From the NCBI GenBank assembly GCA_023301795.1, contig JALZVU010000238.1, forward strand, positions 1 to 48,707: a DNA stretch of 48,707 nt, written 5' to 3'. Every line of letters starts with the position of its first letter. Within the stretch, counting starts at the first letter, position 1. Source of the stretch: Granulosicoccus sp. Lineage in GTDB: Bacteria > Pseudomonadota > Gammaproteobacteria > Granulosicoccales > Granulosicoccaceae. A program made the translations under genes and the position numbers. Shown in pieces: positions 10,530-25,959 of the stretch. The notes beneath the pieces were generated by a model that was not told the DNA's origin, searched no databases, and saw only the letters and a program-made list of their open reading frames with translations.

Positions 10530-11372
10530 GTGACTTACGCTCAACCAAAGAATCTTGATGAGGCACTTGGATTGCTGGCCGAAGAATCGTGGTCGATTCT
10601 GGCGGGCGGCACGGATTTCTACCCAAGTGTTCTGGAACGCCCCATGCCCAGTCGTGTCATGGATATCCATGCTCTGGAAGAGCTACGACCGATCAGCGTC
10701 GAAGATTCACACGTGCGCATCGGCGCTGGTGCCACGTGGAGCGATTTGATCGATGCCCAATTGCCGCCAGCCTTCGATGCGCTGAAACTGGCAGCTGCAG
10801 AGGTGGGGTCTGTACAAATACAGAACCGAGCCACTGTGGTGGGCAATCTGTGTAATGCCTCGCCGGCAGCGGATGGCGTGCCACCTTTACTCATTCTGGA
10901 TGCGGCTGTGGAGTTGGTTTCGCACGCAGGTATCCGCACATTGCCGTTGCAAGAGTTCACCTTAGGTAACCGGCGCACTGCCAGAGCATCCAACGAGATG
11001 GTCAGTGGCCTACTTGTTCCTCAGCAATCCGTGCAGGGCCAATCAACTTTCTTGAAACTCGGCGCACGCAAGTATCTGGTTATATCTATTTCGATGGTTG
11101 CAGGTCGTATGGTCATTGACCACAAAGGCGTCATCGAAGATGTGGCGTTGAGTGTCGGTTCGTGCTCGTTGGTTGCACAACGATTGACTGACCTGGAGGC
11201 AGCGTTAACCGGGCAGGTCGCGTCAAAGGATCTGGGGTCTCTGGTAAGTACCAGACATCTGGAATCGTTGGCTCCCATAGATGATGTTCGAAGCACCATT
11301 GCCTATCGCATGGATGCCTCACTGGAATTGATCAGACGCTGCGTTAACACCTTGGGGAGTACGCCGGCATGA
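10530..11372 (+). CDS. Molybdenum hydroxylase, FAD-binding subunit (CoxM/XdhB-like)
   Basis: This is the 280-residue medium subunit of a xanthine-dehydrogenase-family enzyme. It passes electrons from the iron-sulfur clusters to its FAD and on to an acceptor. FAD-contact motifs are visible: LAGGTDFYPSV (about residues 25-35) and the TVVGNLCNASPAADGVPPLL stretch (about 105-124). The start is GTG, with AGAGGG about 5 bases upstream. It is the first gene of a tight operon: its stop overlaps the next start by 4 bases (ATGA). Together with the following gene it should form a complete enzyme that hydroxylates a carbon next to a ring nitrogen; the reductase and enamidase neighbours point to a pyridine carboxylate. 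Confidence 0.93.
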   Translation: MTYAQPKNLDEALGLLAEESWSILAGGTDFYPSVLERPMPSRVMDIHALEELRPISVEDSHVRIGAGATWSDLIDAQLPPAFDALKLAAAEVGSVQIQNRATVVGNLCNASPAADGVPPLLILDAAVELVSHAGIRTLPLQEFTLGNRRTARASNEMVSGLLVPQQSVQGQSTFLKLGARKYLVISISMVAGRMVIDHKGVIEDVALSVGSCSLVAQRLTDLEAALTGQVASKDLGSLVSTRHLESLAPIDDVRSTIAYRMDASLELIRRCVNTLGSTPA

Positions 11373-14107
11373 CGCTACTGACGGTTAATGGAAAACAGGT
11401 AGAGCTGAATGCACATCCTCTTGAGCGTCTGTCGGATGTGTTGCGCGGCGCGTTAGAGTTGACGGGCACCAAGGTCGGTTGTAACACTGGCGATTGTGGT
11501 GCTTGTACGGTGCTGCTTGATGGCAAAGCCGTTTGTAGTTGCCTGACCCCTGTTGGCCAGACCAACGGCTGTAAGGTAGAGACGGTGGAAGGGTTGGATA
11601 CCGATGGTTCCCTGAGCCAGTTGCAACGTAGTTTTCTACATTTTGGCGCGGCACAATGTGGCATCTGCACGCCAGGGATGTTGATGGCTGCCAAGGCGCT
11701 GCTCGCCGATACGCCGCGTCCCAGCCAGGATCAGGTGGAGCAGGCGTTATCGGGTGTCTTGTGTCGGTGTACTGGCTATCGGAAAATTGTGCAGGCAGTG
11801 ATGGAAGCCACTCAGTTTGTCGACACCCAGACCGCACCTGCCATCGGACATAATGTGGGTGCTGCACTTCGTCACGTGGATGGTGAACCAAAAGTGACGG
11901 GTGAGTTGCGTTATGGTGCTGATACGGTTCCGGCTAACGCACTATCTCTGCGTGTATTACGCAGCCCGCATCATGCGGCAGTGTTTGAGTTTGGCGACAT
12001 TGAGGCTTTTGTCAGAACCACTGAGGGTATCGAATGTGTTTTAACAGCCAAGGATATTCCTGGCCTCAATTGCTTCGGGGTCATCCCGCCATTTGCTGAT
12101 CAGCCGGTGTTTGCTGATAAAAATGCGCGTTTCCGTGGCGAAGCTATAGCCGCTATCGTGGGTGATCCGCAGACAATAGCTGCGCTGGATCTAAGCACAT
12201 TTCCCATACAGTGGTATCCGCAGGATGCTGTGCTTGAGCCTCATGAGGCTATGCAAGCTGATGCGCTATTACTGCATAAGTTACGTGATGAAAACATATT
12301 GATACGCGGTCTGGTCGAGCGCGGTGATGCAGAATTGGCTTTGCAAAGCTGTACACACACCGCAATGGTTAGCTCGTCAACGCCGTTCATCGAGCACGGA
12401 TATATTGAACCTGAGGCAGGCTACGCTAGACGTGTGGGTGATCGGTTGGAAATTTTTGGCTGCACGCAAGCCACGCACATGGATCGTGAAGAAGTTGCCC
12501 AGATAATGGGGTTGGCGCTTGATGCTGTTCGTGTGATGCCATCAGCCTGTGGTGGCGGATTTGGCTCGAAGATCGATGTATCGTTCCAACCCTACATTGC
12601 TTTGGCGGCCTGGGTCACTGGAAAGCCTGTAACGATTTGTTACACGCGGCCTGAGTCCATGCGTTCAACCACGAAACGGCATCCTTCCGATATAACGTTA
12701 AGTGTTGGTTGCGACGATTCAGGCACTATCACAGCATTTGATTTTCACGGAATATTCAATACTGGGGCATACGCTAGCTGGGGCCCCACCGTTGCCAATC
12801 GCGTGCCGGTTCATGCGTCAGGGCCGTACTTTATTCCAAACTACCGTGCACGCAGTGTAGCTGTGCATACCAACACGCCACCAGCGGGCGCGTTTCGCGG
12901 TTTTGGCGTGCCGCAATCAGCCATCGCGCAAGAGTGTGCGTTTGATGAACTAGCTGAAAAGGTCGGGATGGACAGGCTTGACTTCAGGTTGCATAACGCC
13001 TTACGTAACGGTCAGTCTACTGTCACAGGGCAAGTGTTTTCTGCCGGTGTCGGTATTGTTGAATGTCTGGAGGCTCTACGCAATGCCTGGCATGGTGCGT
13101 TGGAGAGGGCAAAGCAGTTTAACGCCACTACAAATGGTTCGGGTATACGCAAAGGGGTCGGGCTTGCAACATGCTGGTACGGTTGTGGCAATACATCGCT
13201 GCCTAATCCCTCAACTATCCGCTTTGGTATCAAGGCTAGCGGTGAGCTGGTGCTGCATCAGGGTGCTATGGATATCGGGCAGGGTTCCAATACGGTTATT
13301 ACACAAATTGCGGCTGATGCTCTGGGTGTATCAGCTCTTGAGATCGTACGCATAGACGGTGATACTGACTTAACACCAGATTGCGGTAAGACATCGGCTT
13401 CGCGGCAAACGTTTATAACGGGTTCAGCAGCGAAGCTTGCAGGGGAGGCGTTGCGTGCAATGTTACTGCGTAAAGCCAATGTAGGCGCAGACGCACGATT
13501 GGTTTTTAAAGAGCAGAGCATCGAGTTACAAGGTGGTGGTCAGAGTGTCACGCTTGATTTGAAGTCTCTTCCGACTAACGAGCATGGCTATGTGTTTATG
13601 GCGCAGGAAACCTACGACCCGGTAACCCAAGCATTGGATGAAAAAGGTCAAGGAGTACCCTATGCTCTCTATGGCTACGGTGCGCAAATTATGGAGCTTA
13701 GCGTGGATACTCGTCTGGGCACCGTCAAGCTGAATCACATAACCACGGCTCATGATGTAGGACGTGCTATTAACCCTCTACTGGTAGAAGGGCAGATCGA
13801 AGGTGGGGTTGCACAAGGTGTCGGTATGGCGCTTATGGAAGACTATCGGCCGGGGATGACTGAAAACCTCCACGACTATCTGATGCCGACGATTGGCGAT
13901 ATGCCGCAGTTCACTAACATTATTGTTGAGGTTTCCGATCCCGAAGGGCCCTATGGTGCCAAAGGTCTGGGTGAACATGTGCTGATACCGACAGCACCTG
14001 CCATTCTCAATGCTATCCGTCATGCTACGGGCGCGTGCATTCGAGACCTTCCAGCCACACCCGATAAGGTTCTGGCGGCTATCCAGGCGTTACCGGAGGC
14101 GTCATGA
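11369..14107 (+). CDS. Molybdenum hydroxylase, fused [2Fe-2S] and Mo-binding subunit
   Basis: This 912-residue protein joins what are often two separate subunits. Residues 1-150 hold the two [2Fe-2S] clusters: a plant-ferredoxin type (Cys38, 43, 46, 58) and an alpha-helical type (Cys97, 100, 132, 134). From about residue 165 the protein is a molybdopterin-binding large subunit with GGGFGSK (395-401), AFRGFGVPQ, DIGQGSNTVI, AHDVGRAINP and AKGLGE. The last contains the expected catalytic glutamate (Glu869). The likely cofactor is molybdopterin cytosine dinucleotide. By context the enzyme hydroxylates the carbon beside the nitrogen of a pyridine carboxylate, as nicotinate dehydrogenase does. No maturation factor (XdhC type) is in the window. 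Both ends overlap their neighbours by 4 bases. Confidence 0.92.
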   Translation: MTLLTVNGKQVELNAHPLERLSDVLRGALELTGTKVGCNTGDCGACTVLLDGKAVCSCLTPVGQTNGCKVETVEGLDTDGSLSQLQRSFLHFGAAQCGICTPGMLMAAKALLADTPRPSQDQVEQALSGVLCRCTGYRKIVQAVMEATQFVDTQTAPAIGHNVGAALRHVDGEPKVTGELRYGADTVPANALSLRVLRSPHHAAVFEFGDIEAFVRTTEGIECVLTAKDIPGLNCFGVIPPFADQPVFADKNARFRGEAIAAIVGDPQTIAALDLSTFPIQWYPQDAVLEPHEAMQADALLLHKLRDENILIRGLVERGDAELALQSCTHTAMVSSSTPFIEHGYIEPEAGYARRVGDRLEIFGCTQATHMDREEVAQIMGLALDAVRVMPSACGGGFGSKIDVSFQPYIALAAWVTGKPVTICYTRPESMRSTTKRHPSDITLSVGCDDSGTITAFDFHGIFNTGAYASWGPTVANRVPVHASGPYFIPNYRARSVAVHTNTPPAGAFRGFGVPQSAIAQECAFDELAEKVGMDRLDFRLHNALRNGQSTVTGQVFSAGVGIVECLEALRNAWHGALERAKQFNATTNGSGIRKGVGLATCWYGCGNTSLPNPSTIRFGIKASGELVLHQGAMDIGQGSNTVITQIAADALGVSALEIVRIDGDTDLTPDCGKTSASRQTFITGSAAKLAGEALRAMLLRKANVGADARLVFKEQSIELQGGGQSVTLDLKSLPTNEHGYVFMAQETYDPVTQALDEKGQGVPYALYGYGAQIMELSVDTRLGTVKLNHITTAHDVGRAINPLLVEGQIEGGVAQGVGMALMEDYRPGMTENLHDYLMPTIGDMPQFTNIIVEVSDPEGPYGAKGLGEHVLIPTAPAILNAIRHATGACIRDLPATPDKVLAAIQALPEAS

Positions 14108-15657
14108 GCGAGTCAGATAGGCGGTCAAGAATCCTTAAGGAAAAAATACGCTGCGATGCCTGTCCGGTGATGTGCTATATCGCTGATGGGCGTTCAGGTG
14201 CGTGTGATCGCTATGCTAACCATGCCGGGCAGTTGGTTCGGCTTGATCCGTTGACAATTTTGCAGAAGCGTTGTGAAGAAGGCGGGGAGCTTGTGCCTTT
14301 TATCAGCGGTAGTGAGACTGCAACAGACCCGGACAGCGATGAGGTTTCGGTAGACTCATCATGGGACGGGAAAATCGTTCATTCATCTGAGGCCTTTGTA
14401 ACTGCGATCGGTGCAGGCACTACATATCCGGACTACAAGCCTGCCCCCTTTATCGTGGCAAGTGAAGTAGACGGTGTGGACATGGTAACCGTTGTCACCG
14501 AAGGGATATTCAGTTATTGCGGTGCCAAGATAAAAATTGATACTGACAGGCATTTAGGTGCTGAGTGCAGCGCCGTACGTGTGAAAGGCGAGGCGGTCGG
14601 GCATGTAACAACTGGCGAGTACGGCTCTCAAATGTTGTCTTTGGGCGGTGTTCATCATCTCACTGGCGGTAGCAAAAAAGAGGGGCGCATCACGTGTGAA
14701 ACATTGCTGTCGTTATGTAACTGCGAGGCTGTTGAATTAAGTGTTGATGGTGGTTCAACGGTGGTCGTGCAGGCCGGTGTCGCACCCATCATTGATGGTG
14801 TTACGGAAGAGCGTATGCGTGTGGGCTGCGGGTCAGCAACCGTGGGTATGTTTGCATCTCAGTGGCAGGATCTGGTTGATGAGGTGGTTGTGGTGGATGA
14901 TCACATTACGGGTGTTGTGTCAGAGCATCAGGCCGGTAAGGTGCTGGGCTGGCCAGCTAGTGGTATTCGTATCAACGGACGTAAATCCACACCGGGTCGT
15001 TATTTTCAGGTGGCGGAACCGGGAACCGGTTGGGGAGGTACTGACCTGAATGATCCGTTGGGCATAGTGGGTGAATTCAAAGCTGATATCGCAAAGCCTG
15101 GTCAATCGTTATTGATGGTTTCAACCACCGGGGAACAATTTTCTTACTACGAATTGGATGAGGCGTTAATTCCTGTCAAATTGCCAATGCCTGAAAGACT
15201 GCAAGCCAGTATCGAACGCATAGAGGAAAATTGTGAGCCAGCGTTGTGTAGTGTGGTGTTCATGGGTGGGGCGGGAGGCTCGTTAAGAGCCGGTGTTACG
15301 ACAAACCCGGTACGACTCACCCGTTCAGTGAAGCAGGCCCTGACTACCGTGACGTGTGGTGGTGCACCAAGTTATATATGGCCGGGCGGCGGTATTACCG
15401 TGATGAGTGATGTCACGCTGATGCCATCCAATGCATTTGGCTATGTACCCACACCTGCGCTGGTGGCCCCCATTGAATTCACCGTACGCCGTGATGATTA
15501 TGAAGCCATGGGTGGACACATGGGGCATATCGTGCCGCTAGTGGAGGCGGTGAAAGGCGTGACTGGACCGCAGAATGATCATGTTATGGCAGGTCAGCGC
15601 ACTGTTGATCCTAATGGTGACAATCCCTGGCCACTTGAGGGGCGTGCAAATCGATAG
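14104..15657 (+). CDS. hnr: 6-hydroxynicotinate reductase-like iron-sulfur protein
   Basis: This is a 517-residue protein of the family annotated as 6-hydroxynicotinate reductase. In Eubacterium barkeri that enzyme reduces 6-hydroxynicotinate to 1,4,5,6-tetrahydro-6-oxonicotinate with ferredoxin. Four cysteines near the N-terminus (Cys17, 20, 24, 34, within CDACPVMC and GAC) look like a [4Fe-4S] site. The rest is rich in Gly/Val strands without a classical Rossmann motif. The family call comes from my memory of the sequences and is strongly supported by the neighbours: Mo hydroxylase directly upstream and an enamidase 2.7 kb downstream. The start overlaps the preceding stop (ATGA). The natural electron donor in this presumably aerobic host is unknown. 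Confidence 0.75.
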   Translation: MSESDRRSRILKEKIRCDACPVMCYIADGRSGACDRYANHAGQLVRLDPLTILQKRCEEGGELVPFISGSETATDPDSDEVSVDSSWDGKIVHSSEAFVTAIGAGTTYPDYKPAPFIVASEVDGVDMVTVVTEGIFSYCGAKIKIDTDRHLGAECSAVRVKGEAVGHVTTGEYGSQMLSLGGVHHLTGGSKKEGRITCETLLSLCNCEAVELSVDGGSTVVVQAGVAPIIDGVTEERMRVGCGSATVGMFASQWQDLVDEVVVVDDHITGVVSEHQAGKVLGWPASGIRINGRKSTPGRYFQVAEPGTGWGGTDLNDPLGIVGEFKADIAKPGQSLLMVSTTGEQFSYYELDEALIPVKLPMPERLQASIERIEENCEPALCSVVFMGGAGGSLRAGVTTNPVRLTRSVKQALTTVTCGGAPSYIWPGGGITVMSDVTLMPSNAFGYVPTPALVAPIEFTVRRDDYEAMGGHMGHIVPLVEAVKGVTGPQNDHVMAGQRTVDPNGDNPWPLEGRANR

Positions 15658-16627
15658 CGGCCCACACTATCAATGGCTGTCTGATGGTCGACGACTGCAC
15701 TTGCAGCATGGGCCTATCGATTTGGTTATTGAGGCCGTCGGGACTCCTGATGCAGTGGCCTTGGCTTATCAGCAAGCGCATGAAACTTTTCAACGTGTAT
15801 TGCCCGAGCTTGTAGCCGAGCTTGATTGCTTGCGTGCGCCATTGTGTGTGTCACAGCATTCGCCATCGCCATCGCCATCGCCATCGCCATCGCCATCGTA
15901 CGCACAACCTCAGCTACCGCCAGACACACGAAACCGGAAGCCGTGGAGGCCAGAATGGAGTGTTGCGCAGCGCATGGTTGCAGCAGCAGCACCTTATGCT
16001 GACATCGATCATAGTGGTGGTTATGTAACCGCCATGATCTGCGTCGCAGGTTCGGTGGCTGATCACATTCTGGAATCCATGCTTCACAACAACACACTGA
16101 GTCGGGCGTACGTGAACAACGGAGGCGATATTGCGTTGTGGTTAGCACCGGATGAGTCTTTCACTATCGGGATCTGTGAAAACGCACAAACTGCTCGGAT
16201 TGGTTCGCAATTAGAAATACAGGCGCGGCACCGTGTCGGCGGTATCGCCACCAGCGGTTGGCAAGGTCGCAGCCATTCACTCGGCATTGCCGATGCGGTT
16301 ACTGTGCTGGCAGAGACGGCCGCAAGTGCGGATGTTGCCGCCACCATCATAGCCAACGCTGTGGACCTGCCGGGGTCTGATTGCATACAAAGAACCCCCG
16401 CTGTTGAGTTGTCGCCAGACAGTGATCTGGGCGAGCGATTGGTCACCGTTGCGGTTGACAAGCTGGCGCAGCCGCTTATAAACAGCGCACTTGATCGTGG
16501 CGAGCAGCGCGCAATGCAGCTACTATCCAAAGGCTTCATAACGTCAGCCTACATAAACTTGCAAGCTCACCATAGAGTTTGTGGCAATCCCATACACATC
16601 CTTCGTGCAGGAGCAATGCATGCCTGA
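15644..16627 (+). CDS. UPF0280 family protein (ApbE-superfamily-like)
   Basis: This is a 327-residue protein of the uncharacterised UPF0280 family (COG2122), distantly related to the flavin transferase ApbE. Typical features are the DHSGGYVTAMICVAGSVADH region, the AYVNNGGDIALWL stretch and GIATSGWQGRSHSLGIADAV near the C-terminal third. I choose GTG 15644, which has GAGGGG upstream and starts VQIDSGPHYQW; a more distal ATG at 15575 would overlap the previous gene by 83 bases. An in-frame TCGCCA hexanucleotide tract inserts Ser-Pro repeats at about residues 73-85. The catalytic role is unknown. The consistent placement between the reductase and DUF1185 genes suggests it serves the same pathway, perhaps in flavin attachment. 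Confidence 0.82.
   Translation: MQIDSGPHYQWLSDGRRLHLQHGPIDLVIEAVGTPDAVALAYQQAHETFQRVLPELVAELDCLRAPLCVSQHSPSPSPSPSPSPSYAQPQLPPDTRNRKPWRPEWSVAQRMVAAAAPYADIDHSGGYVTAMICVAGSVADHILESMLHNNTLSRAYVNNGGDIALWLAPDESFTIGICENAQTARIGSQLEIQARHRVGGIATSGWQGRSHSLGIADAVTVLAETAASADVAATIIANAVDLPGSDCIQRTPAVELSPDSDLGERLVTVAVDKLAQPLINSALDRGEQRAMQLLSKGFITSAYINLQAHHRVCGNPIHILRAGAMHA
15860..15898 (+). repeat. TCGCCA hexanucleotide tract, 6.5 copies, in the UPF0280 gene
   Basis: Six full TCG-CCA units plus one TCG lie in frame and encode (Ser-Pro)6-Ser. The tract falls between the first alpha/beta segment and the DHSGG core, in what is probably a surface loop. Because the unit is two codons long, slippage would change loop length without a frameshift. 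Confidence 0.9.
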
Positions 16628-17204
16628 AGTCATTGTCAGAAAATCGGTGATAAGCATCGATGAAATATTCCATGAAGGAGGGCCGCCCAGCGCCAAACCT
16701 CTGCTACGGGGTGCAATTAGCTCGGTGATCATTAATCCCTTTGCGGGGCGCTACGTGGAGGAGATCACCGGATTTATCGATGATCTGCGGCCATTGGGAT
16801 TGCAGATGGCAAAAGATCTCCTCAAAGCGCTCGGCGGTGATCCGAGTGTGGTTGAAGGCTATGGCAAGGGCGCTATCGTGGGTGAGGCTGGCGAACTGGA
16901 ACATGGCGCCTTGTGGCACGCACCTGGTGGTTATTCCATGCGTGATCAGCTACCCGCCTCCAAGGCTATCGTACCCTCAACAAAGAAAGTAGGTGGCCCG
17001 GGTGCACGTCTGGATGTGCCCGTAACCCATTCCAATGCTTCTTATGTGCGTTCACACTTCGACGCTATTGAAGTGCGGGTCAATGATGCGCCCAAAGCAA
17101 ATGAGATGGTGGTGATCCTGGTGATGACCACGGGTGCCCGAATACACAACCGCGCAGGTGGCCTGGCAGCCAGCGACATACTTGGTGAGGATGGATTGAA
17201 ATGA
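16620..17204 (+). CDS. DUF1185 (amino acid synthesis family) protein, copy 1
   Basis: This is a 194-residue member of PF06684. The one crystal structure I recall for the family shows a chorismate-mutase-like fold with suggested amino-acid metabolism; no reaction is established. ATG 16620 has AGGAG six bases upstream and starts MPEVIVRKSV; a longer frame from 16581 lacks support. Conserved stretches shared with copy 2 are NPFAGRYVEE, YGKGAIVGEAGELEHGALWH, SNASYVRSHFD and VRVNDAPKANEMV. The start overlaps the UPF0280 stop by 8 bases and the stop overlaps copy 2 by 4, so the genes are tightly coupled. A ring-opening or isomerising step in the heterocycle pathway is a reasonable but unproved guess. 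Confidence 0.88.
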   Translation: MPEVIVRKSVISIDEIFHEGGPPSAKPLLRGAISSVIINPFAGRYVEEITGFIDDLRPLGLQMAKDLLKALGGDPSVVEGYGKGAIVGEAGELEHGALWHAPGGYSMRDQLPASKAIVPSTKKVGGPGARLDVPVTHSNASYVRSHFDAIEVRVNDAPKANEMVVILVMTTGARIHNRAGGLAASDILGEDGLK

Positions 17205-17788
17205 GTACGGCGAAAATCAGAAAAATTGTTACCACTGTTGATTGCACCTACCTTGAAATGGGACAGTCTATTGATCCACCGACACGCCGCGCCGTGAGCG
17301 TTGCTGTCATCGAAAACCCGTTTGCTGGCGAGTATCACCAGGACCTTGAGGCGCTTATGGTCATTGGTGAAGAGCTGGGCGATCTATTAGGGAGAAAGTG
17401 TGTAGAGGCTTTGGGGATAGAGCCTGCGCAGGCACAAAGCTACGGTAAATCCGCCATGGTCGGCGAGAACGGTGAGCTCGAGCATGCCGCCGCCATTTTG
17501 CATCCGCGATTGGGCAAACCACTTAGAGCTGCAGTAGGACAGGGTGCGGCGCTGGTGGCATCCAGCAAGAAAATGGGTTCAATGGGGCAGGTGCTGGATG
17601 TACCGCTTGGTCATAAGGATGCAGCTTACGTTCGTTCGCACTTTGATGGTATGGAGGTCAGCATTAACGATGCGCCACGCGCCAATGAAATTATGGTGGC
17701 GGTGGCTGTTACTGATTCCGGAAGGCCGTTACCCAGAGTGGGCGGGCTGGAAGCTGCAGATGCGAAAGGTGAGGACGGTTTGCGTTAG
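17201..17788 (+). CDS. DUF1185 (amino acid synthesis family) protein, copy 2
   Basis: This 195-residue paralogue of the preceding gene keeps the same landmarks: NPFAGEYHQDLE, YGKSAMVGENGELEHAAAI, DAAYVRSHFDGMEVSINDAP and a GGLEAADAKGEDGLR C-terminus. The two copies have clearly diverged, which suggests an old duplication and perhaps a heteromeric complex rather than a recent copy. It is the last gene of the tightly overlapping operon that begins at 10530; the next gene starts about 180 bases later. There is no signal peptide or membrane segment. Function is unknown, as for copy 1. Confidence 0.88.
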   Translation: MSTAKIRKIVTTVDCTYLEMGQSIDPPTRRAVSVAVIENPFAGEYHQDLEALMVIGEELGDLLGRKCVEALGIEPAQAQSYGKSAMVGENGELEHAAAILHPRLGKPLRAAVGQGAALVASSKKMGSMGQVLDVPLGHKDAAYVRSHFDGMEVSINDAPRANEIMVAVAVTDSGRPLPRVGGLEAADAKGEDGLR

Positions 17789-18385: not shown

Positions 18386-19561
18386 TTACTCCACAATTGA
18401 AGGAAGTCGCGCTGCTGGGGGAGTATTTCGGCTGCGGGTAGACGTCACTTTGCCGTCAATGATGGTCATGCCGATACCCGGAAGATTGCCTTGCTGAATG
18501 CTCTCTAGCATATCCTTACCCGGTGAGTGCTGGGCCTGGTCAAGGATGATGAAATCAGCAGACATACCGGGCTCAATGATGCCTGTGTCCAGTTCGCGCA
18601 TACGTGCTGTGTTGCCTGTAGCGAAGCAGAAAGCAATTTCTGCAGGCACGTTTCCAAGACTTGATAGCATGGCAATCATGCGTAGGATGCCCAATGGCTG
18701 GACACCAGACCCTGCTGGTGAGTCAGTGCCCAGAATCACACGCTCGGATTGCTCAATCTCAAACGCTATGCGCATGGCAAGAAGACCTGCACGCTCGTTG
18801 CCGTTATGGACGATTTCTATGCCGCGGCGGCAGCCCTCACACAGGCAGACGATCTGATCGTCGGGTAGGGCGGTGTGGCCCCCATTAATGTGCCCGATAA
18901 TGTCAGCGTCGGCTTCCAGCACAATATCCTTGTCGATAAGTCCTGATCCCGGAATAGAGGGGCCGCCGGTATGTATGGTTGACTGCATACCGTATTTACG
19001 CGCCCACTTTACCATCTGCGCGGCGCTCTCTCCGGCTTTGACAGTGCCCAAGCCAACCTCTCCCAGAAGTTTTACTCCGGCTTCAGACAGTTCTTTAAAA
19101 TCATTTTCTTCCATTCCTTCTTCAAGTATCGGAGCCCCTGCATGCATTTTTACGCCGGAGGGGCGAAAATTCTCATACCAACGCTGCGATGCTATGGCCA
19201 TTGCCTTGAGGCCGACAATGTCTTTTGGCCTGCCAGGCAAATGAACCTCGCCTGCTGAAATCATCGTGGTGACACCGCCATGCAGGCACGAATCAATCCA
19301 GTGAATTTGCTGTTGTCGGGGTGTGTAATCGCCGATGACCGGGTGCACGTGGCTGTCAATAAGTCCGGGTGCAAGCCATGTGTCAGCTGCATCGATTATT
19401 AACTCAGCGTTATCGGTATCCATATCACGCTCGTAGCCTATGGCACTGATGCGACCATCAATCGCAATGACGCAATCGCCGTCTAATAACGGGGCTTCCA
19501 GTTTGCCCGAAAGGATGCGTCCGATATGGCGGATAACAAGCTTTTTCGGTTTTTCGGTCAT
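18386..19561 (-). CDS. ena: Enamidase (amidohydrolase superfamily)
   Basis: This is a 391-residue amidohydrolase closely resembling the Eubacterium barkeri enamidase (EC 3.5.2.18). That enzyme hydrolyses 1,4,5,6-tetrahydro-6-oxonicotinate to 2-formylglutarate and ammonia. Metal-site residues are all present: His71 and His73 (LIDSHVHP), Glu168 (LGEVGLGTVK), His197 (IHTGG), His224 (GHINGGHT) and Asp280 (LGTDSPAGSG). The C-terminal RSRNTPPA is, as I remember it, also found in the E. barkeri protein. It lies 84 bases downstream of marR on the same strand, so the two probably form one autoregulated unit. Together with the Mo hydroxylase and reductase it completes the three-step reductive route. 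Ring position of the carboxylate in the real substrate is not fixed by sequence. Confidence 0.85.
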   Translation of the reverse strand: MTEKPKKLVIRHIGRILSGKLEAPLLDGDCVIAIDGRISAIGYERDMDTDNAELIIDAADTWLAPGLIDSHVHPVIGDYTPRQQQIHWIDSCLHGGVTTMISAGEVHLPGRPKDIVGLKAMAIASQRWYENFRPSGVKMHAGAPILEEGMEENDFKELSEAGVKLLGEVGLGTVKAGESAAQMVKWARKYGMQSTIHTGGPSIPGSGLIDKDIVLEADADIIGHINGGHTALPDDQIVCLCEGCRRGIEIVHNGNERAGLLAMRIAFEIEQSERVILGTDSPAGSGVQPLGILRMIAMLSSLGNVPAEIAFCFATGNTARMRELDTGIIEPGMSADFIILDQAQHSPGKDMLESIQQGNLPGIGMTIIDGKVTSTRSRNTPPAARLPSIVE

Positions 19562-19645: not shown

Positions 19646-20086
19646 TCACTTTTCCAGTTGTATCTTTCTCAGCAATTGCATAAGCCTTTGTGCTTCGCGC
19701 TCTGTTAATCCGTCCAGTGTTCTTGATGAAATCGTACGCGCAACCGGTAAGCATTCTGAAATCAGGCACTGCCCATCGTCGCTCAGCGAAATACGTAGGC
19801 GGCGCTTGTCGTTGGGGTCAGTACGGGTCGTGATAAGAGCTTTTTTTAGCAATCGCTCTATAACACCGTTGGTGGTCGCAGCATCGATTCCAATTTGCCG
19901 GCCCAGCTCATTTTGTGATTCTTCACCGACATTGGACAGTGTCACAAGTAGAGCAAACTGGGTTGGTGTGAGTTCTGGAAGGTGTTGGTGAAATATTTCG
20001 AGGTGACGCTGATTGGCAAGGCGCAATAAATAGCCGATTTGATCGGACAACAGATAGTCGTCTTCCTTGTCGTGCCCTTGCATCAT
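19646..20086 (-). CDS. MarR-family transcriptional regulator
   Basis: This is a winged-helix regulator of about 146 residues. The core reads DYLLSDQIGYLLRLANQRH, then LTPTQFALLVTLSN, the recognition region ELGRQIGIDAATTNGVIERL and the wing DPNDKRRLRISLSDDG. I place the start at ATG 20084-20086; an upstream GTG at 20159-20161 would lie inside the palindromic operator, which is unlikely. It probably represses its own gene, the divergent Rieske gene and the distant Mo-hydroxylase operon through TTGTTyGTrCACrAAC sites. The effector would be a pathway substrate or intermediate, often an aromatic acid for this family. The enamidase gene follows on the same strand. Confidence 0.87.
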   Translation of the reverse strand: MMQGHDKEDDYLLSDQIGYLLRLANQRHLEIFHQHLPELTPTQFALLVTLSNVGEESQNELGRQIGIDAATTNGVIERLLKKALITTRTDPNDKRRLRISLSDDGQCLISECLPVARTISSRTLDGLTEREAQRLMQLLRKIQLEK

Positions 20087-20121
20087 ATGAAGGTACCGGT
20101 TGTGCGTGAAATTCACAAGAC

Positions 20122-20166
20122 TTGACGTCCTTGATTGTTTAGGTATAACTTGTTCGTACACGAACA
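20122..20166 (+). promoter_or_regulatory. Promoter of the Rieske gene with MarR-type operator
   Basis: TTGACG (20122-20127) and TATAAC (20144-20149), 16 bases apart, form a good promoter toward the Rieske gene. The perfect dyad TGTTCGT-AC-ACGAACA (20151-20166) begins two bases after the -10 box and so covers the transcription start. It also lies at the 5' side of marR on the other strand, as expected for autoregulation. The sequence and its position relative to the promoter match the site at 10433-10479. Confidence 0.65.
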
Positions 20167-20190: not shown

Positions 20191-21246
20191 ATGAGCAGCG
20201 CCAACAATCAGTATGTCCATGATGCATGGTATGTGGCTGGGTGGTCGTCAGAATTCACTCACAGTTTGTTGCCGCTAATGATTCTGGAGCAGGCGCTAGT
20301 AGGCTATCGCTGTGCAGATGGGACAGTGGCTATTCTTGAAGATCGTTGCCCGCACCGACAACTGCCTCTCTCCAAAGGCCAGCTTCATAACGACAATATC
20401 CAATGTGGTTACCATGGCATGACGTTCAACGGACAGGGCCAATGTGTACGGATACCGGGGCAAGACAACATCCCGTCATCAGCCTATGTTCGCACCTATC
20501 CGGTACATGAAAAAAACAACATTGTTTTTATCTGGATGGGGGAGCCTGATAAGGCGGATACAAATGCCATATTTCATCTGCCACAATTTGACAGCGATCA
20601 ATGGCACGCACACCAAGGCGATGCACTGCACTTGAAAGCACATTACATGAATGTTGCTGAAAATCTGGTAGATCCTGCCCACGTCAGTTTTGTTCACCCC
20701 ACTACGCTAGGAAATGCAGCCAGTGAAGACATTGAGGTACATGTTGATGTAGATAGCGATGTGTTGCTTGCATGGCGCTGGATTCGTGATGCGCCGCCTG
20801 TGGGTTTCTTTCAGAAATTTGGTGGCTTTGACGCCAATGTCGATCGCTGGCATTACTATTACTTGCATTTGCCATGTACGGCTGTCATTGATTTTGGCAG
20901 TGCTGATGTGAGCGCACAGTTGCAAGAGTCAGAGCGTGACAAGGGTGTGCGGATTTTTGCATTGCACTTTTTGACACCGGTTAATGAGCATTACACCATT
21001 GATCGCTGGATGCATCTACGTAATGCAGCCGTGGGTGACGAACAGGCATCCGAGCAGATGGATGCCATGTTCCGAATTGCTTTTAATGAGGATAAAGAAA
21101 TACTCGAAGCCATTGACGAGGCTGAACGTGCTGTACAGACACGCAAGCCCATTCGCCTGGCAATAGACAAAGGCCCTATTGTTTACCGGCGCAGAATCCA
21201 ATCGTTGATTGATGGGGAGCGTCCTGAAGTAGAGCTCCACGCGTGA
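20191..21246 (+). CDS. Rieske [2Fe-2S] oxygenase, VanA-like alpha subunit
   Basis: This is a 351-residue terminal oxygenase. The Rieske cluster ligands are Cys53, His55, Cys72 and His75 (CPHRQLPLSKG...CGYHGMTF). The mononuclear iron site is in the second domain with His164 and His169 (ENLVDPAHVSFVHP) and probably an Asp near NEDKEILEAID. Size and layout are those of the vanillate O-demethylase/VanA group, which oxidatively remove O- or N-methyl groups or hydroxylate aromatic acids. No ferredoxin reductase (VanB type) is nearby, so the electron donor must come from elsewhere. It is divergent from marR with a shared operator. In this context N-demethylation of an N-methylpyridine carboxylate is an attractive inference only. 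Confidence 0.88.
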   Translation: MSSANNQYVHDAWYVAGWSSEFTHSLLPLMILEQALVGYRCADGTVAILEDRCPHRQLPLSKGQLHNDNIQCGYHGMTFNGQGQCVRIPGQDNIPSSAYVRTYPVHEKNNIVFIWMGEPDKADTNAIFHLPQFDSDQWHAHQGDALHLKAHYMNVAENLVDPAHVSFVHPTTLGNAASEDIEVHVDVDSDVLLAWRWIRDAPPVGFFQKFGGFDANVDRWHYYYLHLPCTAVIDFGSADVSAQLQESERDKGVRIFALHFLTPVNEHYTIDRWMHLRNAAVGDEQASEQMDAMFRIAFNEDKEILEAIDEAERAVQTRKPIRLAIDKGPIVYRRRIQSLIDGERPEVELHA

Positions 21247-21375: not shown

Positions 21376-22602
21376 ATGAAGTATCGAAGCAGGTTGTCTG
21401 CCGTAGCCATACTTGTCGCCAGCACCGTAGTGTCTATCACTGGGGCTCTTACCGGCGTTGCACAAGCCGCAGAGCCCATTAAAGTCGGTGAGATCAATCA
21501 CTACAAACGAATGGCGGCATTCGCCGGACCTTACAAAAATGGAATCGAGCTTGCGCTTGAGGAAATCAACGCGCAGGGAGGCGTCTTGGAAAGGCCCCTG
21601 GAATTTATTTTTCGCGATGATCAAGGCAAGCCGGGTGAGGCCATCAAAATTGCTGAAGAGCTGGTTAGTCGCGATGAAGTGGTGATGCTGACAGGCACTA
21701 TTCTGAGTAATATCGGACTTGCATTGTCGTCGTTTGCTGCTGAGAAAAAGGTGGTATACCTTGCATCGGAGCCTCTGGCTGATGCGCTGGTCTGGGAGGC
21801 AGGCAATGACTATACGTTCCGTCTGCGTGCATCCACATATATGCAGGCGGCGATGCTGGCAGAGGAGGCGGCCAAAACCGATGCGGTAACGTACGCCACT
21901 ATTGCCCCCAACTATGCTTATGGCAAAGATGCAGTAGCTGCATTTAAAAAGGCCTTGACTGCTCTTCGTCCGGATGTAGAGTTTGTTGCTGAACAATGGC
22001 CGGCCTTGTTTAAAATCGATGCAGGTGCTGAGGCGCAAGCGATTGAGCGTGCCAAGCCTGATGCTATTTTCAATGTGACATTTGGCGGTGATCTTGCCAA
22101 GTTTGTTCGTGAAGGTACAACCCGCGGCTTGTTTGATGGCCGCAATGTGTACGGTCTTTTAACGGGTGAGCCTGAGTACCTGGAGCCATTGGCTGATGAG
22201 GCGCCTGTTGGCTGGACGGTAACTGGCTATCCTTGGTACGACTTCGAATCTGGCGCGAACAAAGTGTTTGTTGACGCCTACATGGAGCGCTTTGACGACA
22301 GCCCGAAAATTGGTTCTCTGGTGGGATACATGACGGCCCAATCCATTGCTGCTGCTATCAAGCGAGCAGGATCTACTGAAATGGAATCCATACGTGAAGC
22401 TTTCATCGGGCTTGAGGTTGACACGCCAGTGGGCTCAATTGTCTTTCGCTCACAGGATCATCAAGCAACGATGGGTGCCTTTGTGGGAACTACAGCGTTG
22501 CAAGATGGCGCTGGTGTGATGGTGGACTGGACCTACAAGGAAGGAGCGAATTATCTGCCTTCTGACGAAGAAGTAGCCGCTATGCGTCCAGCCAGTCAAT
22601 AG
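21376..22602 (+). CDS. ABC transporter substrate-binding protein (branched-chain/amide type)
   Basis: This is a 408-residue periplasmic binding protein of the LivK/Peripla_BP_6 type. A signal peptide is clear: basic start MKYRSR, hydrophobic core, and probable cleavage after AQA (about residue 31). The mature part starts EPIKVGEINHYKRM and has the family stretch GIELALEEINAQGGV. This family binds amino acids, amides, urea and aromatic acids; the binding pocket cannot be read by eye. It is the first gene of a four-gene importer operon located next to the catabolic genes, which argues for uptake of the same substrate. GGAGAG lies upstream of the ATG. Confidence 0.9.
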   Translation: MKYRSRLSAVAILVASTVVSITGALTGVAQAAEPIKVGEINHYKRMAAFAGPYKNGIELALEEINAQGGVLERPLEFIFRDDQGKPGEAIKIAEELVSRDEVVMLTGTILSNIGLALSSFAAEKKVVYLASEPLADALVWEAGNDYTFRLRASTYMQAAMLAEEAAKTDAVTYATIAPNYAYGKDAVAAFKKALTALRPDVEFVAEQWPALFKIDAGAEAQAIERAKPDAIFNVTFGGDLAKFVREGTTRGLFDGRNVYGLLTGEPEYLEPLADEAPVGWTVTGYPWYDFESGANKVFVDAYMERFDDSPKIGSLVGYMTAQSIAAAIKRAGSTEMESIREAFIGLEVDTPVGSIVFRSQDHQATMGAFVGTTALQDGAGVMVDWTYKEGANYLPSDEEVAAMRPASQ

Positions 22603-22614
22603 GTATCTGATTCT

Positions 22615-24462
22615 GTGGGTCTTTTCATTGCTCAGCTATTGACAGGCCTTGCCAATGCGGCAACGCTGTTTCTTGTGGCGTCTGGCTTGTCGCTTATTTT
22701 TGGCGTCACAAGAATTGTCAATTTTGCCCACGGATCGTTTTACATGCTGGGGGCTTTTGTTGGCTATTCCCTGATGCAAGTATTGCCGGGTGCCATTGGG
22801 TTCTGGGCTTCTGTTCTACTGTCGGGTCTGATAGTTGGGCTTATCGGGGTTGTTGTCGAGATGCTGGTGTTAAGGCCGGTATACAAGGCACCCGAGCTAT
22901 TTCAGTTGGTAGCAACATTTGGGGTCATCCTTGTCATCCAGGATCTGGCCTTGATGATCTGGGGAGCGGAAGACCTGCTGGGCCCACGTGCACCTGGACT
23001 CAAGGGTGTGGTTCGGATCATGGGAGAGCCGGTCCCGCTATACGACCTTGCTCTCATCGCCATGACCCCATTCGTGCTTTTCGCATTGTGGTATCTGATT
23101 GCCCGAACGCGTCTGGGTGTGTTGGTTCGCGCAGCCACGCAAGATAGAGAAATGGTTGCTGCACTGGGTGTTAATCAGGCCTGGTTATTCACCGGGGTCT
23201 TCTTTTTAGGTGCTGCTTTAGCGGGCCTAGGTGGGGCCATTCAGCTGCCCAAAGGCGGCGCTGATTTGCTGATGGATTTCAATATCCTGGCGGCCATCTT
23301 TGTTGTGGTCGTCATCGGTGGTATGGGGTCGCTACCAGGTGCCTACATAGCCGCTGTGCTTATATCGGTGCTCAATGTGTTTGGTGTGTCCTACTTGCCG
23401 CAAAGCACCCTTGTATTGATGTTTGTGGTTATGGCGGTTGTTCTTACCATTCGCCCTTACGGATTATTAGGCCGCGAAGAAGTAGCAGGCGAACACGGGC
23501 AGGTTGGTGAGCCGGATCGTCCTATCAAGCCTGCAGGCGTGCGTGCGCGAGTCATCGTTGGCATCGGGTTGTTGTTACTGCTGGCGCTGCCGATGGCCGA
23601 CTCACATTTTCTTGTCATATTAGCCACCGACATCATCATTTTCGCGCTGTTTGCAGCTAGCTTGCATTTTCTGCTGGGCTTGGGCGGGCTTGTGTCGTTT
23701 GGACATGCCGCATTTTTTGGCGCTGGTGCCTATGTGGCCGCGCTGCTGGTATCTCACGCGAACGCACCGATGGAGCTGGCTTTTTTGTTGGCACCCGTAG
23801 GTGCTGGCATGGCAGCCTTGATCATCGGCTGGCTTTGCTTGCGATTGACTGGCGTGTACTTTGCCATGCTGACTCTGGCATTGGCCCAGCTGCTCTGGTC
23901 TCTGGTGTTCCAGTGGGATGAGTTCACAGGCGGTGATGACGGACTAGTGAACATCTGGCCTGCCAAGTGGCTATCCGAGGCCAACAGTTACTTCTACTTC
24001 ACGGCGATTGTGGGTGTGGGTGGGATTATTTTGTTGCGCCATATGGCTCATTCGCCGTTTGGCTTTGCATTGCGCGCAGCGCGTGATTCTCAGCGTCAGG
24101 CAGAGGCAACAGGCATCGATACGAAACGAGTGCAATGGATGGCCTTTACAGTGGCCGGTGTATTAGCGGGGGTGGCTGGCGGGTTGTTCGTATTCTCCAA
24201 AGGCAGTGTTTTTCCTAATGAGCTGGAAATTGCCAAATCATTTGATGGTCTCATCGTTGTGTTTCTGGGAGGCGTTAAAACCCTGTCCGGTGGTGTGGTT
24301 GGCGCTGCATCATTGGAGCTGGTGAAGGACTACCTCACACGATTTGAATATTGGCGTCTTGCTTTGGGCTTGCTAATCATTTTTGTTGTCATCGTAGCTC
24401 CTACCGGTATTGTGGGTTCGCTTCGCTCTTTGCTCGAACGCGTGCGGGGTAGCTCGACATGA
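22615..24462 (+). CDS. ABC transporter permease, LivH-LivM fusion
   Basis: This is a 615-residue inner-membrane protein that joins the two permease subunits of a branched-chain-amino-acid-type importer. The N-terminal half (to about 285) is LivH-like, with GLSLIFGVTRIVNFAHGSFY and GGMGSLPGAYIAA. The linker around residues 285-310 is hydrophilic. The C-terminal half is LivM-like, with GGLVSFGHAAFFGAGAYVAA and a GVYFAMLTLALAQLLWS stretch. Separate LivH and LivM genes are more usual. Start is GTG 22615. The stop overlaps the LivG start by 4 bases. Together the halves should form the complete membrane channel. Confidence 0.92.
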   Translation: MGLFIAQLLTGLANAATLFLVASGLSLIFGVTRIVNFAHGSFYMLGAFVGYSLMQVLPGAIGFWASVLLSGLIVGLIGVVVEMLVLRPVYKAPELFQLVATFGVILVIQDLALMIWGAEDLLGPRAPGLKGVVRIMGEPVPLYDLALIAMTPFVLFALWYLIARTRLGVLVRAATQDREMVAALGVNQAWLFTGVFFLGAALAGLGGAIQLPKGGADLLMDFNILAAIFVVVVIGGMGSLPGAYIAAVLISVLNVFGVSYLPQSTLVLMFVVMAVVLTIRPYGLLGREEVAGEHGQVGEPDRPIKPAGVRARVIVGIGLLLLLALPMADSHFLVILATDIIIFALFAASLHFLLGLGGLVSFGHAAFFGAGAYVAALLVSHANAPMELAFLLAPVGAGMAALIIGWLCLRLTGVYFAMLTLALAQLLWSLVFQWDEFTGGDDGLVNIWPAKWLSEANSYFYFTAIVGVGGIILLRHMAHSPFGFALRAARDSQRQAEATGIDTKRVQWMAFTVAGVLAGVAGGLFVFSKGSVFPNELEIAKSFDGLIVVFLGGVKTLSGGVVGAASLELVKDYLTRFEYWRLALGLLIIFVVIVAPTGIVGSLRSLLERVRGSST

Positions 24463-25265
24463 GTGCGGTTCTTGAAGTTGTCGGTCTCAGCAAATCGTTT
24501 GGTGGGATACATGCGGTTAGTAACGTTGATTTTTGTGTTGCGCCAGGTGAACTGCTTGCGTTGATAGGCCCCAATGGCGCCGGTAAAACCACCTGCTTCA
24601 ATATGCTCATGGGACAGCTCAAACCCACTAAGGGTGATGTATTTTTGAAGGGTGAGCGTATTACTGGCATGCTGCCACGCAAGGTCTGGCGCCGTGGTGT
24701 GGGTCGGACATTTCAGATTACCGGCACCTATCAGTCGATGACTGTTATCGAAAACGTTCAGATGGCGCTTATCTCACATCACAAGCGCGTGTTCTCCATA
24801 ACATCCTACGCAACACGCCTGTACGAAAAACAGGCCATGGAGCTGTTGGAGCTTGTAGGCATGCCGGAACAGGCACAACGAGCGTGTGCCATTCTGGCCT
24901 ATGGCGATCTGAAGCGACTGGAGCTTGCCATAGCGCTTTGTCATGAGCCGTCATTGCTACTGATGGATGAGCCTACTGCAGGTATGGCCCCCAGTGAGCG
25001 TATTGCCTTGATGCAGCTAACAGCCGATATTGTTGCCCAGCGCGGAATCAGCGTGTTGTTCACAGAGCATGATATGGACGTAGTTTTTGCGCATGCGCAG
25101 CGCATTATGGTGCTTAACCGAGGAGAGCTGATAGCGGAGGGTAGTGCTCAGATGATTCGCAACAACCGTATGGTGCAGGAGGTCTATCTGGGGGGAGGTA
25201 GTCTCTTTGAGGATCAAACCCTTGACGAACATGCCGGCGCGCCGGGCGGTGATCAGCATGCTTGA
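24459..25265 (+). CDS. ABC transporter ATP-binding protein, LivG type
   Basis: This is a 268-residue ATPase for the importer. Walker A is GPNGAGKTT, the signature is the LivG-typical variant LAYGDLKRLELA, Walker B is LLLMDEPTAGM and the H-loop is LFTEHDMDVV. The FQITGTYQSMTVIENVQ motif is like the F-Q loop of LivG. The start codon overlaps the permease stop (ATGA) and the stop overlaps the LivF start by 8 bases, so the three are translated as one unit. Confidence 0.94.
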   Translation: MSAVLEVVGLSKSFGGIHAVSNVDFCVAPGELLALIGPNGAGKTTCFNMLMGQLKPTKGDVFLKGERITGMLPRKVWRRGVGRTFQITGTYQSMTVIENVQMALISHHKRVFSITSYATRLYEKQAMELLELVGMPEQAQRACAILAYGDLKRLELAIALCHEPSLLLMDEPTAGMAPSERIALMQLTADIVAQRGISVLFTEHDMDVVFAHAQRIMVLNRGELIAEGSAQMIRNNRMVQEVYLGGGSLFEDQTLDEHAGAPGGDQHA

Positions 25266-25959
25266 GTTACAAGGCGTTAACAGCTTCTACGGTCGAGCTC
25301 ATATTTTGCGTGATCTGAGTTTTAGTGTCGGGACAGGCGAGGTGGTGTCCCTGCTGGGTAGAAACGGCGCCGGTAAGACCACTACGGTCAAGTCGATAAT
25401 GCAACTGGTAAAGCCTGCCAGTGGCTCTGTCAATTTTGATGGCCACGAACTGGTGGGCACACCTACTCATAAAGTGGCCAAGCTGGGTATTGGTTACGTG
25501 CCAGAAGAGCGCCGAATATTCACAGATCTAACCATTAGTGAGAATCTTGAAGTCGGCCGTCAACCTCCACGCGAGGGTGTGTTTGAGTGGACAACAGATA
25601 TTTTGTTCGAGCTGTTTCCCAACCTGGCCGAACGTCGCAACAATCGCGGTAAGGCCTTGTCTGGCGGTGAGCAGCAAATGCTTTCCATCGCCCGTACGCT
25701 TATGGGTAACCCTCGGTTACTGTTGCTGGATGAACCTAGTGAAGGCATTGCGCCTGTGATTGTGGAGCAAATGGCGCAGACCATACTCAAGCTTAAAGCT
25801 GAGGGGTTACCGGTGCTGCTTTCCGAGCAGAATCTGCATTTTGCGCGGATGGTATCTGACAGGGCGGTGATCATTGAAGGGGGACTCAAGAAATACGATG
25901 GTACGTTTACTGAGCTGGATGCATCACCTCAGGTAAGAGAGGCCTTTCTGTCGGTTTAG
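25258..25959 (+). CDS. ABC transporter ATP-binding protein, LivF type
   Basis: This is a 233-residue second ATPase of the importer. Walker A is GRNGAGKTT, the signature LSGGEQQMLSIAR, Walker B LLLLDEPSEGI and the H-loop LLSEQNL, with Gln in place of His, as is common in LivF. VPEERRIFTDLTISENL is also typical. ATG 25258 (MLELQGVNSFYG) is preferred to an ORF start at 25207, which would overlap LivG by 59 bases. It is the last gene of the operon; 95 bases separate it from the chemoreceptor and no clear terminator is visible. Confidence 0.94.
   Translation: MLELQGVNSFYGRAHILRDLSFSVGTGEVVSLLGRNGAGKTTTVKSIMQLVKPASGSVNFDGHELVGTPTHKVAKLGIGYVPEERRIFTDLTISENLEVGRQPPREGVFEWTTDILFELFPNLAERRNNRGKALSGGEQQMLSIARTLMGNPRLLLLDEPSEGIAPVIVEQMAQTILKLKAEGLPVLLSEQNLHFARMVSDRAVIIEGGLKKYDGTFTELDASPQVREAFLSV

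Follow-up and report, generated by a model that had tools for sequence, protein, structure and literature searches.

What do the UPF0280 and DUF1185 genes contribute to gene clusters for the reductive breakdown of nicotinate-type compounds? The question is raised by a 48,707-nucleotide stretch of DNA from Granulosicoccus sp. (contig JALZVU010000238.1 of assembly GCA_023301795.1; hereafter the window), in which genes for a molybdenum (Mo) hydroxylase, a 6-hydroxynicotinate-reductase-like protein (Hnr, gene hnr), a UPF0280 protein and two DUF1185 proteins (DUF1185a and DUF1185b) run in one direction with their ends overlapping. The overlaps amount to 14 bases between hnr and UPF0280 (if GTG 15644 is the start of the latter), eight between UPF0280 and DUF1185a and four between the two DUF1185 genes. 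A first-pass annotation of this DNA had correctly placed the last three genes at 15644 to 17788, with the 8- and 4-base overlaps on either side of DUF1185a and with two motifs found in both DUF1185 copies. It considered all three genes to belong to families without known reactions, and proposed that UPF0280 loads a cofactor and that the DUF1185 pair forms a heteromeric enzyme whose substrate is the reduced ring.

Our analysis divides these genes into two groups. UPF0280 is probably a dedicated maturation factor of Hnr, the reaction itself being a proposal, and the DUF1185 proteins, whose genes stand beside that of a ring-opening hydrolase, seem to act on the ring-opened product, again by a reaction that we can only propose. 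As an explanation of the whole locus, within a reductive nicotinate-type pathway, we give this an even chance. The gene cluster itself is already known; the new element is the split between a helper of the reductase and partners of ring opening. The available portions of PMC2954203, PMC7913881 and PMC5764234 assign no reaction to DUF1185 or UPF0280/COG2122, in agreement with the first-pass annotation; for DUF1185 two crystal structures are available (3byq and 2qtp), and for COG2122 a genetic role in homocysteine synthesis is described.

Pairing of UPF0280 with hnr and its relation to ApbE

Co-occurrence was analysed in 398 genomes, a single draw from the phylum with the window genome included. 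Hnr was found in 32 of these genomes and strong UPF0280 matches in the identical 32, a count that omits four weak matches (E 7.5e-5 to 9.6e-4); in all 32 the Hnr and UPF0280 domain ends lie 5-489 bp apart. A scan for hnr with one genome per species gave at least 590 Hnr relatives, the best 80 of which were kept. UPF0280 stands directly after hnr in 74 of the 78 loci with more than 1.5 kb following, and one or two DUF1185 genes are in place in 64 of the 71 loci with more than 3 kb after hnr (two copies in 31 of the 64). This arrangement of hnr, UPF0280 and DUF1185 is more than chance. Six genomes have an hnr locus that ends early or is without an adjoining UPF0280 gene, and all six carry a UPF0280 match elsewhere; one match is fragmentary and lies where its contig ends, and another contains an in-frame stop. 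In genome G398 a UPF0280 gene with one in-frame TAG lies away from hnr (contig 119), and the hnr locus of that genome is without UPF0280. Frequent occurrence without the reductase, which the first-pass annotation had taken to speak against a shared pathway, was found in the 398 genomes for DUF1185 and not for UPF0280. That UPF0280 serves Hnr is very likely; that the service concerns flavin is a more tentative view, to which we give somewhat less than an even chance.

The window UPF0280 protein scored 338.2 bits against NCBIfam NF003322 (equivalog cut-off 290) and 20.1 bits against ApbE PF02424, below the gathering score of 25.6. Its AlphaFold model (predicted local distance difference test score, pLDDT, 89.7) has a predicted ApbE fold across residues 13-325. 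The closest solved structure is 2o34 (Z 20.0), which we take to be a COG2122 protein. The ApbE/Ftp flavin transferases 4xdr, 1vrm and 6nxi gave Z 14.7-17.3 over 212-230 residues (Z 17.3 to the T. pallidum flavin mononucleotide (FMN) transferase and Z 17 to TM1553), and the next unrelated fold gave 7.8. The top ranks of Foldseek were likewise held by 2o34 (E 1.3e-10) and an ApbE type (E 8.2e-6). Profile comparison of UPF0280 with 28 ApbE sequences gave a probability of 91% (E 1.3e-6, for a single comparison) and aligned the ApbE-type motifs VNxGGD, ATSG and AD..AT. These motifs are near-invariant in 47 UPF0280 sequences, with N158, G161, D162, T203, S204 and D230 invariant and T234 kept in 44. 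The window genome also has two ordinary ApbE genes, both on other contigs. Within the UPF0280 gene, positions 15860-15898 of the window form a pure 6-bp microsatellite (TCGCCA, 6.5 copies) that encodes a Ser-Pro linker, and this region is a gap in the six relatives first aligned with it.

Several observations weigh against UPF0280 as a maturation factor of the flavin-transferring type. By sequence the tie to ApbE is weak: the profile comparison was insignificant with only two ApbE rows (probability 0.8%), and Foldseek superpositions of the model on ApbE chains were poor (template modelling (TM) scores of about 0.3-0.5). The N-terminal half gave no confident sequence alignment with ApbE. The HIIDPxTGxP loop is absent from UPF0280 and forms a gap in the profile alignment with the 28 ApbE sequences; it is the loop bearing the catalytic His257 of V. 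cholerae ApbE, which is mutated in 6nxj (H257G). The flavinylation target motif of ApbE partners is of the SGA[TS] type, and this canonical motif was present in 0 of 47 Hnr sequences, all 47 of which keep a DHITGVxS-like segment (D..TG..S/T). For the cofactor loading suggested in the first-pass annotation, the pairing with hnr and the predicted fold speak in favour, and the missing loop and target motif against. Co-occurrence, moreover, cannot separate maturation of Hnr from a direct catalytic role of UPF0280. Finally, the homology of COG2122 seemingly stops short of the flavin-binding region of ApbE according to the available text of PMC5764234, in which a persulfide role is proposed.

Analysis of Hnr itself revealed an N-terminal CxxCxxxC...C motif, which probably provides iron-sulfur ligands, and eight cysteines invariant in 47 sequences. 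The Hnr of Eubacterium barkeri reportedly carries a covalently bound flavin in addition to iron-sulfur clusters, which a dedicated ApbE-fold partner would explain. Relatives sharing 61-71% identity with the window Hnr were present in 26 plasmid records, where the match bears the name 6-hydroxynicotinate reductase in 17, hypothetical protein in three and no annotation in six. As regards homology to the E. barkeri Hnr, an identity of 42% is given for a Bradyrhizobiaceae homologue (PMC3511419). No PDB relative of Hnr was found by sequence at E below 1, and its model (pLDDT 72) gave no Foldseek match at E <= 0.001. The best VIA-align match of this model was the C-terminal barrel of the glycine-cleavage T-protein (Z 4.5, 63 residues). 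A weak similarity to the same barrel was seen at residues 140-217, where Pfam GCV_T_C matched below its cut-off in eight of eight members (best E 0.003). A known fold for Hnr by way of GCV_T_C was considered on these sub-threshold matches; with a pLDDT of only 72 the model establishes neither kinship with that barrel nor novelty of the fold. In genome G016 (contig 1, 2969814-2971261) hnr is split between two reading frames that overlap, and matches to UPF0280 and DUF1185 follow it.

The invariant cysteines would also suit a role of UPF0280 in the sulfur or iron-sulfur chemistry of Hnr, by supplying persulfide or by assembling clusters, in line with the proposal made for COG2122 and its DUF39 and NIL/ferredoxin partners (PMC5764234, in the portions available). 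According to genetic evidence in the same source, homocysteine synthesis in Desulfovibrio depends on COG2122/UPF0280, and the missing ApbE loop points in this direction as well. Against it, the predicted fold and the retained motifs are those of flavin transferases, and the partners look unlike one another. Hnr was compared with DUF39, a relationship that would have unified the partners of COG2122, and was rejected as its relative: the profile comparison gave only a Cys-rich stretch, in a weak test with two of six DUF39 rows in the wrong frame and a shallow Hnr profile (effective number of sequences, Neff, 1.7). Taken together, we consider a sulfur role to be possible and fairly unlikely. It could further be argued that the locus presents an ordinary annotation gap, that is a known operon with generic accessory genes and no new mechanism; the one-to-one pairing of UPF0280 with hnr would be unexpected for a generic function, and we regard this explanation as unlikely. 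With a dedicated maturation factor as the probable role, UPF0280/COG2122 is here tied to one client, which makes a clean system in which to learn its function.

DUF1185 genes and ring-opening hydrolases

DUF1185a and DUF1185b scored 225 and 235 bits against Pfam PF06684 (gathering cut-off 27) and are the only DUF1185 matches in the window genome (5.78 Mb, 313 contigs, 97% complete). Among the 398 genomes DUF1185 was found in 59, at 85 places that include one partial match (29.9 bits, G159 contig 12). Hnr is absent from 28 of these 59 genomes; the other 31 make up all but one of the 32 Hnr genomes. By accession, the 388 plasmid records with a relative of DUF1185b include all 26 Hnr records, and 362 are without an Hnr match. 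One genome, G139, a single contig rated 100% complete, has hnr, UPF0280, the Mo hydroxylase flavin adenine dinucleotide (FAD) subunit, an ATP-binding cassette (ABC) transporter and hydantoinase A, and gave no DUF1185 match.

Comparison with the hydrolases revealed an association. Enamidase relatives (E <= 1e-40) occur in 20 of the 398 genomes, and DUF1185 lies on the same contig in 20 of 20, at a distance of 57 bp to 14.0 kb; the hypergeometric chance of this co-occurrence is 1.1e-18, a value that disregards phylogeny and makes the association look stronger than it is, near relatives being counted. In four genomes the DUF1185-enamidase pair lies on a contig without hnr, 57-97 bp apart. In two of these (G123 and G194) the distance from the end of a tandem DUF1185 pair to an enamidase is 58 and 97 bp, the enamidase sharing about 60% identity with that of the window, and hnr lies on another contig; the other two (G238 and G289) have no Hnr match, and the gap between DUF1185 and an enamidase relative (42% identity) is 57 bp in the former and 92 bp in the latter. 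In three annotated plasmids (L140, L146 and L148) the gene immediately following DUF1185 encodes an enamidase relative (41-44% identity). In three other regions (L209, L211 and L212) the DUF1185 open reading frame (ORF) overlaps the longest alpha/beta-hydrolase ORF, followed by a luciferase-type monooxygenase and an aldehyde dehydrogenase in L209 and L212 and by an aldehyde dehydrogenase in L211, an arrangement that we take to resemble oxidative pyridine or trigonelline clusters. At the 57 hnr loci longer than 21 kb the ring opener was an enamidase relative in 34 and hydantoinase A in 10, with neither in 13. DUF1185 accompanies the ring-opening hydrolase, including at places without hnr. An Arthrobacter plasmid (L145) carries tandem DUF1185 genes with an LLM (luciferase-type) oxidoreductase, a flavin reductase, a riboflavin kinase, an aldehyde dehydrogenase and a tautomerase.

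Four points weigh against a role of DUF1185 on the ring-opened product. DUF1185 also adjoins FAH-family, M20, aldehyde dehydrogenase and nucleoside-hydrolase genes (in ten plasmid regions hand-picked from the match list for a survey of neighbours), and of the 46 sites in the 398 genomes at which DUF1185 stands apart from hnr, only six have an enamidase relative nearby. In 31 of the 32 hnr genomes DUF1185 lies within 122 bp of UPF0280, so that a link to Hnr is possible. The DUF1185 protein HcdD belongs to a coumarin pathway without a ring nitrogen (PMC7913881, in the portions available), a poor fit to an enamine substrate.

The two copies of the window were further compared residue by residue. 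Copy a carries YGKGAIVGEAGELEH and copy b YGKSAMVGENGELEH, each together with YVRSHFD, and E90, E92, H93, H98, H144, R172 and R176 (BB2672 numbering) are kept in both. At the position of BB2672 His174, DUF1185a has His (H-type) and DUF1185b has Leu (L-type), as in 2qtp. In the BB2672 hexamer this position belongs to a group of four His near a cavity, at the larger of the interfaces (PMC2954203, in the portions available). Position 174 was read in 40 hnr-linked tandem pairs, among them those of plasmids and of the window. It is His in the first copy of all 40, and the second copy carries Leu in 34 pairs, Asn in two, Asp and His in one each and gaps in two. Further rows drawn from 3.5-kb loci, which include the window copies once more and some hnr-linked genomes, were left out as independent counts. 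Beyond the hnr-linked set no single pattern holds: L145 has His followed by Gln, L206 has His followed by Leu, and L205 has His twice. A quick tree built from 146 distinct rows required five changes of this residue, compared with 51.5 in shuffles; judged by this low number the H/L split is old, and we propose that the paralogues have partly separate tasks.

The types were also tallied against the ring openers in 88 Hnr loci (the 80 genome loci, seven plasmids and the window). L-type alone occurred with enamidase in 20 loci, with hydantoinase in none and with neither seen in 16; H-type alone with hydantoinase in five, enamidase in none and neither in one; both types with enamidase in 20, hydantoinase in 11, both openers in one and neither in nine. 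Five loci had no DUF1185 and no opener seen. A rule pairing the H-type with hydantoinase and the L-type with enamidase was rejected, with two to five independent pairs on the Hnr tree and a sign test that was not significant.

The obligate heteromeric enzyme on the reduced ring, proposed in the first-pass annotation, is consistent with the regular order of His and Leu in the tandem pairs, with the largely separate clades of the H- and L-types and with the position of the site in a His cluster at the larger BB2672 interface (PMC2954203, as above). Mixed DUF1185 hexamers are possible. An obligate heteromer is unsupported because single-type genomes exist: one-contig genomes rated 100% complete have the L-type alone (G335) or the H-type alone (G071), which suggests that neither type needs the other in order to function. 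The nearly half of DUF1185 genomes without hnr, the DUF1185 pairs beside enamidase on contigs lacking hnr, the absence of a DUF1185 match from G139 and the association with the ring-opening hydrolase all argue against the proposal, which we consider quite improbable. A further alternative casts the DUF1185 proteins in a non-enzymatic role, in which they would stimulate or stabilise a dehydrogenase or hydrolase encoded nearby. The homologue TgnF is cited as boosting TgnE-dependent succinate-semialdehyde oxidation, and attempts at similar stimulation by HcdD failed (PMC7913881, in the portions available). Conservation argues for an enzyme instead: the polar set Y/F79, K81, E90, E92, H93, R142, H144, R172 and R176 (BB2672) is largely conserved, with single exceptions, and this set, near a cavity of roughly 1000 cubic angstroms, has the look of an active site, although part of it is read as interface salt bridges in the available text of PMC2954203. 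We consider a purely stimulating role rather unlikely, and action on the ring-opened product is the reading that we carry forward.

Proposed pathway and comparison with known systems

The substrate is probably a nicotinate-like pyridine. Judged from the named families, the Mo hydroxylase would act first, reduction by Hnr would then give a tetrahydro-oxo-pyridine carboxylate, and the enamidase would open the ring to a formyl acid and ammonia. UPF0280 would prepare Hnr, most likely by attaching or loading flavin, in a manner departing from classical ApbE. The DUF1185 proteins would not be Hnr subunits and would act as partners of the enamidase, of hydantoinase A/B or of an alpha/beta hydrolase; their substrate is probably an unstable enamine or beta-formyl acid freed by the hydrolase, and the step may be a deamination, tautomerisation or decarboxylation. 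RidA-type enamine deaminases also have the chorismate-mutase-like fold reported for DUF1185; for the DUF1185 reaction this offers a lead and not a test. In its most specific form the proposal would make UPF0280 a second, cytosolic kind of flavin-attachment enzyme, with an ApbE fold but no ApbE catalytic loop, whose single client Hnr is modified at a non-canonical site (for example DHITGVxS). DUF1185 would be a so far unrecognised catabolic enzyme family for the enamine or formyl-acid products that ring-opening hydrolases set free when N-heterocycles are broken down; we hold this combination to be speculative and somewhat unlikely. The name 'amino acid synthesis family protein' given to DUF1185 is probably wrong, since the neighbours point to the catabolism of ring compounds. 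If the explanation is true, the unassigned genes of hnr-type nicotinate clusters gain roles, and many genome annotations can be corrected.

Comparison with the hnr (nicotinate) cluster of Azorhizobium caulinodans and Bradyrhizobiaceae (PMC3511419) revealed that the window adds two DUF1185 copies, a Mo hydroxylase with fused subunits and a Rieske oxygenase; from Bradyrhizobium loci we infer that the two unknown proteins of that cluster are UPF0280 and DUF1185. The window enamidase aligns almost from end to end with the Eubacterium barkeri enamidase 2vun (E 1.6e-110; residues 7-389 against 3-385), the window protein belonging to a proteobacterial cluster and being known here from sequence. For the E. 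barkeri enzyme, ring opening to formyl acid and ammonia is described in the available portions of PMC7356986 and PMC9304392. With ApbE/Ftp, UPF0280 has in common the predicted fold and the three motifs, but not the catalytic-His loop. Compared with COG2122/UPF0280 of sulfate reducers and methanogens (2o34, DVU1097), the partner differs, being DUF39 with NIL/ferredoxin there (PMC5764234, in the portions available) and Hnr here. BB2672 (3byq) and SPO0826 (2qtp) belong to the same Pfam family as the window DUF1185 proteins and the His/Arg/Glu cluster is kept, whereas the pathway context differs; it also differs for HcdD and TgnF, which are counted as DUF1185 members in the available text of PMC7913881. 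DUF1185 homologues form hexamers with a fold like that of Bacillus chorismate mutase, and a role in amino-acid metabolism has been suggested (PMC2954203, in the portions available).

Features of the window and neighbouring genes

Table 1. Genes of the hnr locus and its surroundings in the window, with the basis of each assignment.
Feature	Position	Strand	Basis or remark
Mo hydroxylase FAD subunit	10530..11372	+	PF00941, PF03450
Mo hydroxylase fused [2Fe-2S]-molybdopterin subunit	11369..14107	+	Fer2, Fer2_2, MoCoBD_1, MoCoBD_2
hnr, 6-hydroxynicotinate-reductase-like, 517 aa	14104..15657	+	named plasmid relatives
UPF0280 (COG2122-like, ApbE superfamily), 327 aa	15644 (GTG)..16627	+	NF003322
DUF1185a / AA_synth, H-type	16620 (ATG)..17204	+	PF06684; best solved-structure match 3byq
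DUF1185b / AA_synth, L-type	17201 (ATG)..17788	+	PF06684; best solved-structure match 2qtp SPO0826
enamidase-family amidohydrolase, probable ring opener	18386..19561	-	2vun match; behind operon, opposite strand
MarR-family regulator	19646..20161	-	PF01047
Rieske (VanA-type) oxygenase	20191..21246	+	PF00355, PF19112
branched-chain-amino-acid-type ABC transporter	21376..25959	+	binding protein PF13458; ATPase ORF at 24459 PF00005

The permease and the second ATPase of the ABC transporter were assigned by ORF order, matching the annotated relatives L033, L035 and L037. A Rieske oxygenase of the type found in the window adjoins the transporter binding-protein gene in several hnr clusters, and its substrate might be a pyridine bearing a methyl or other substituent, ahead of the pathway. 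The combination of Mo hydroxylase, hnr, UPF0280, two DUF1185 genes and enamidase was also found together in an Acidobacteriaceae assembly (L105), which suggests either transfer between phyla or a binning error.

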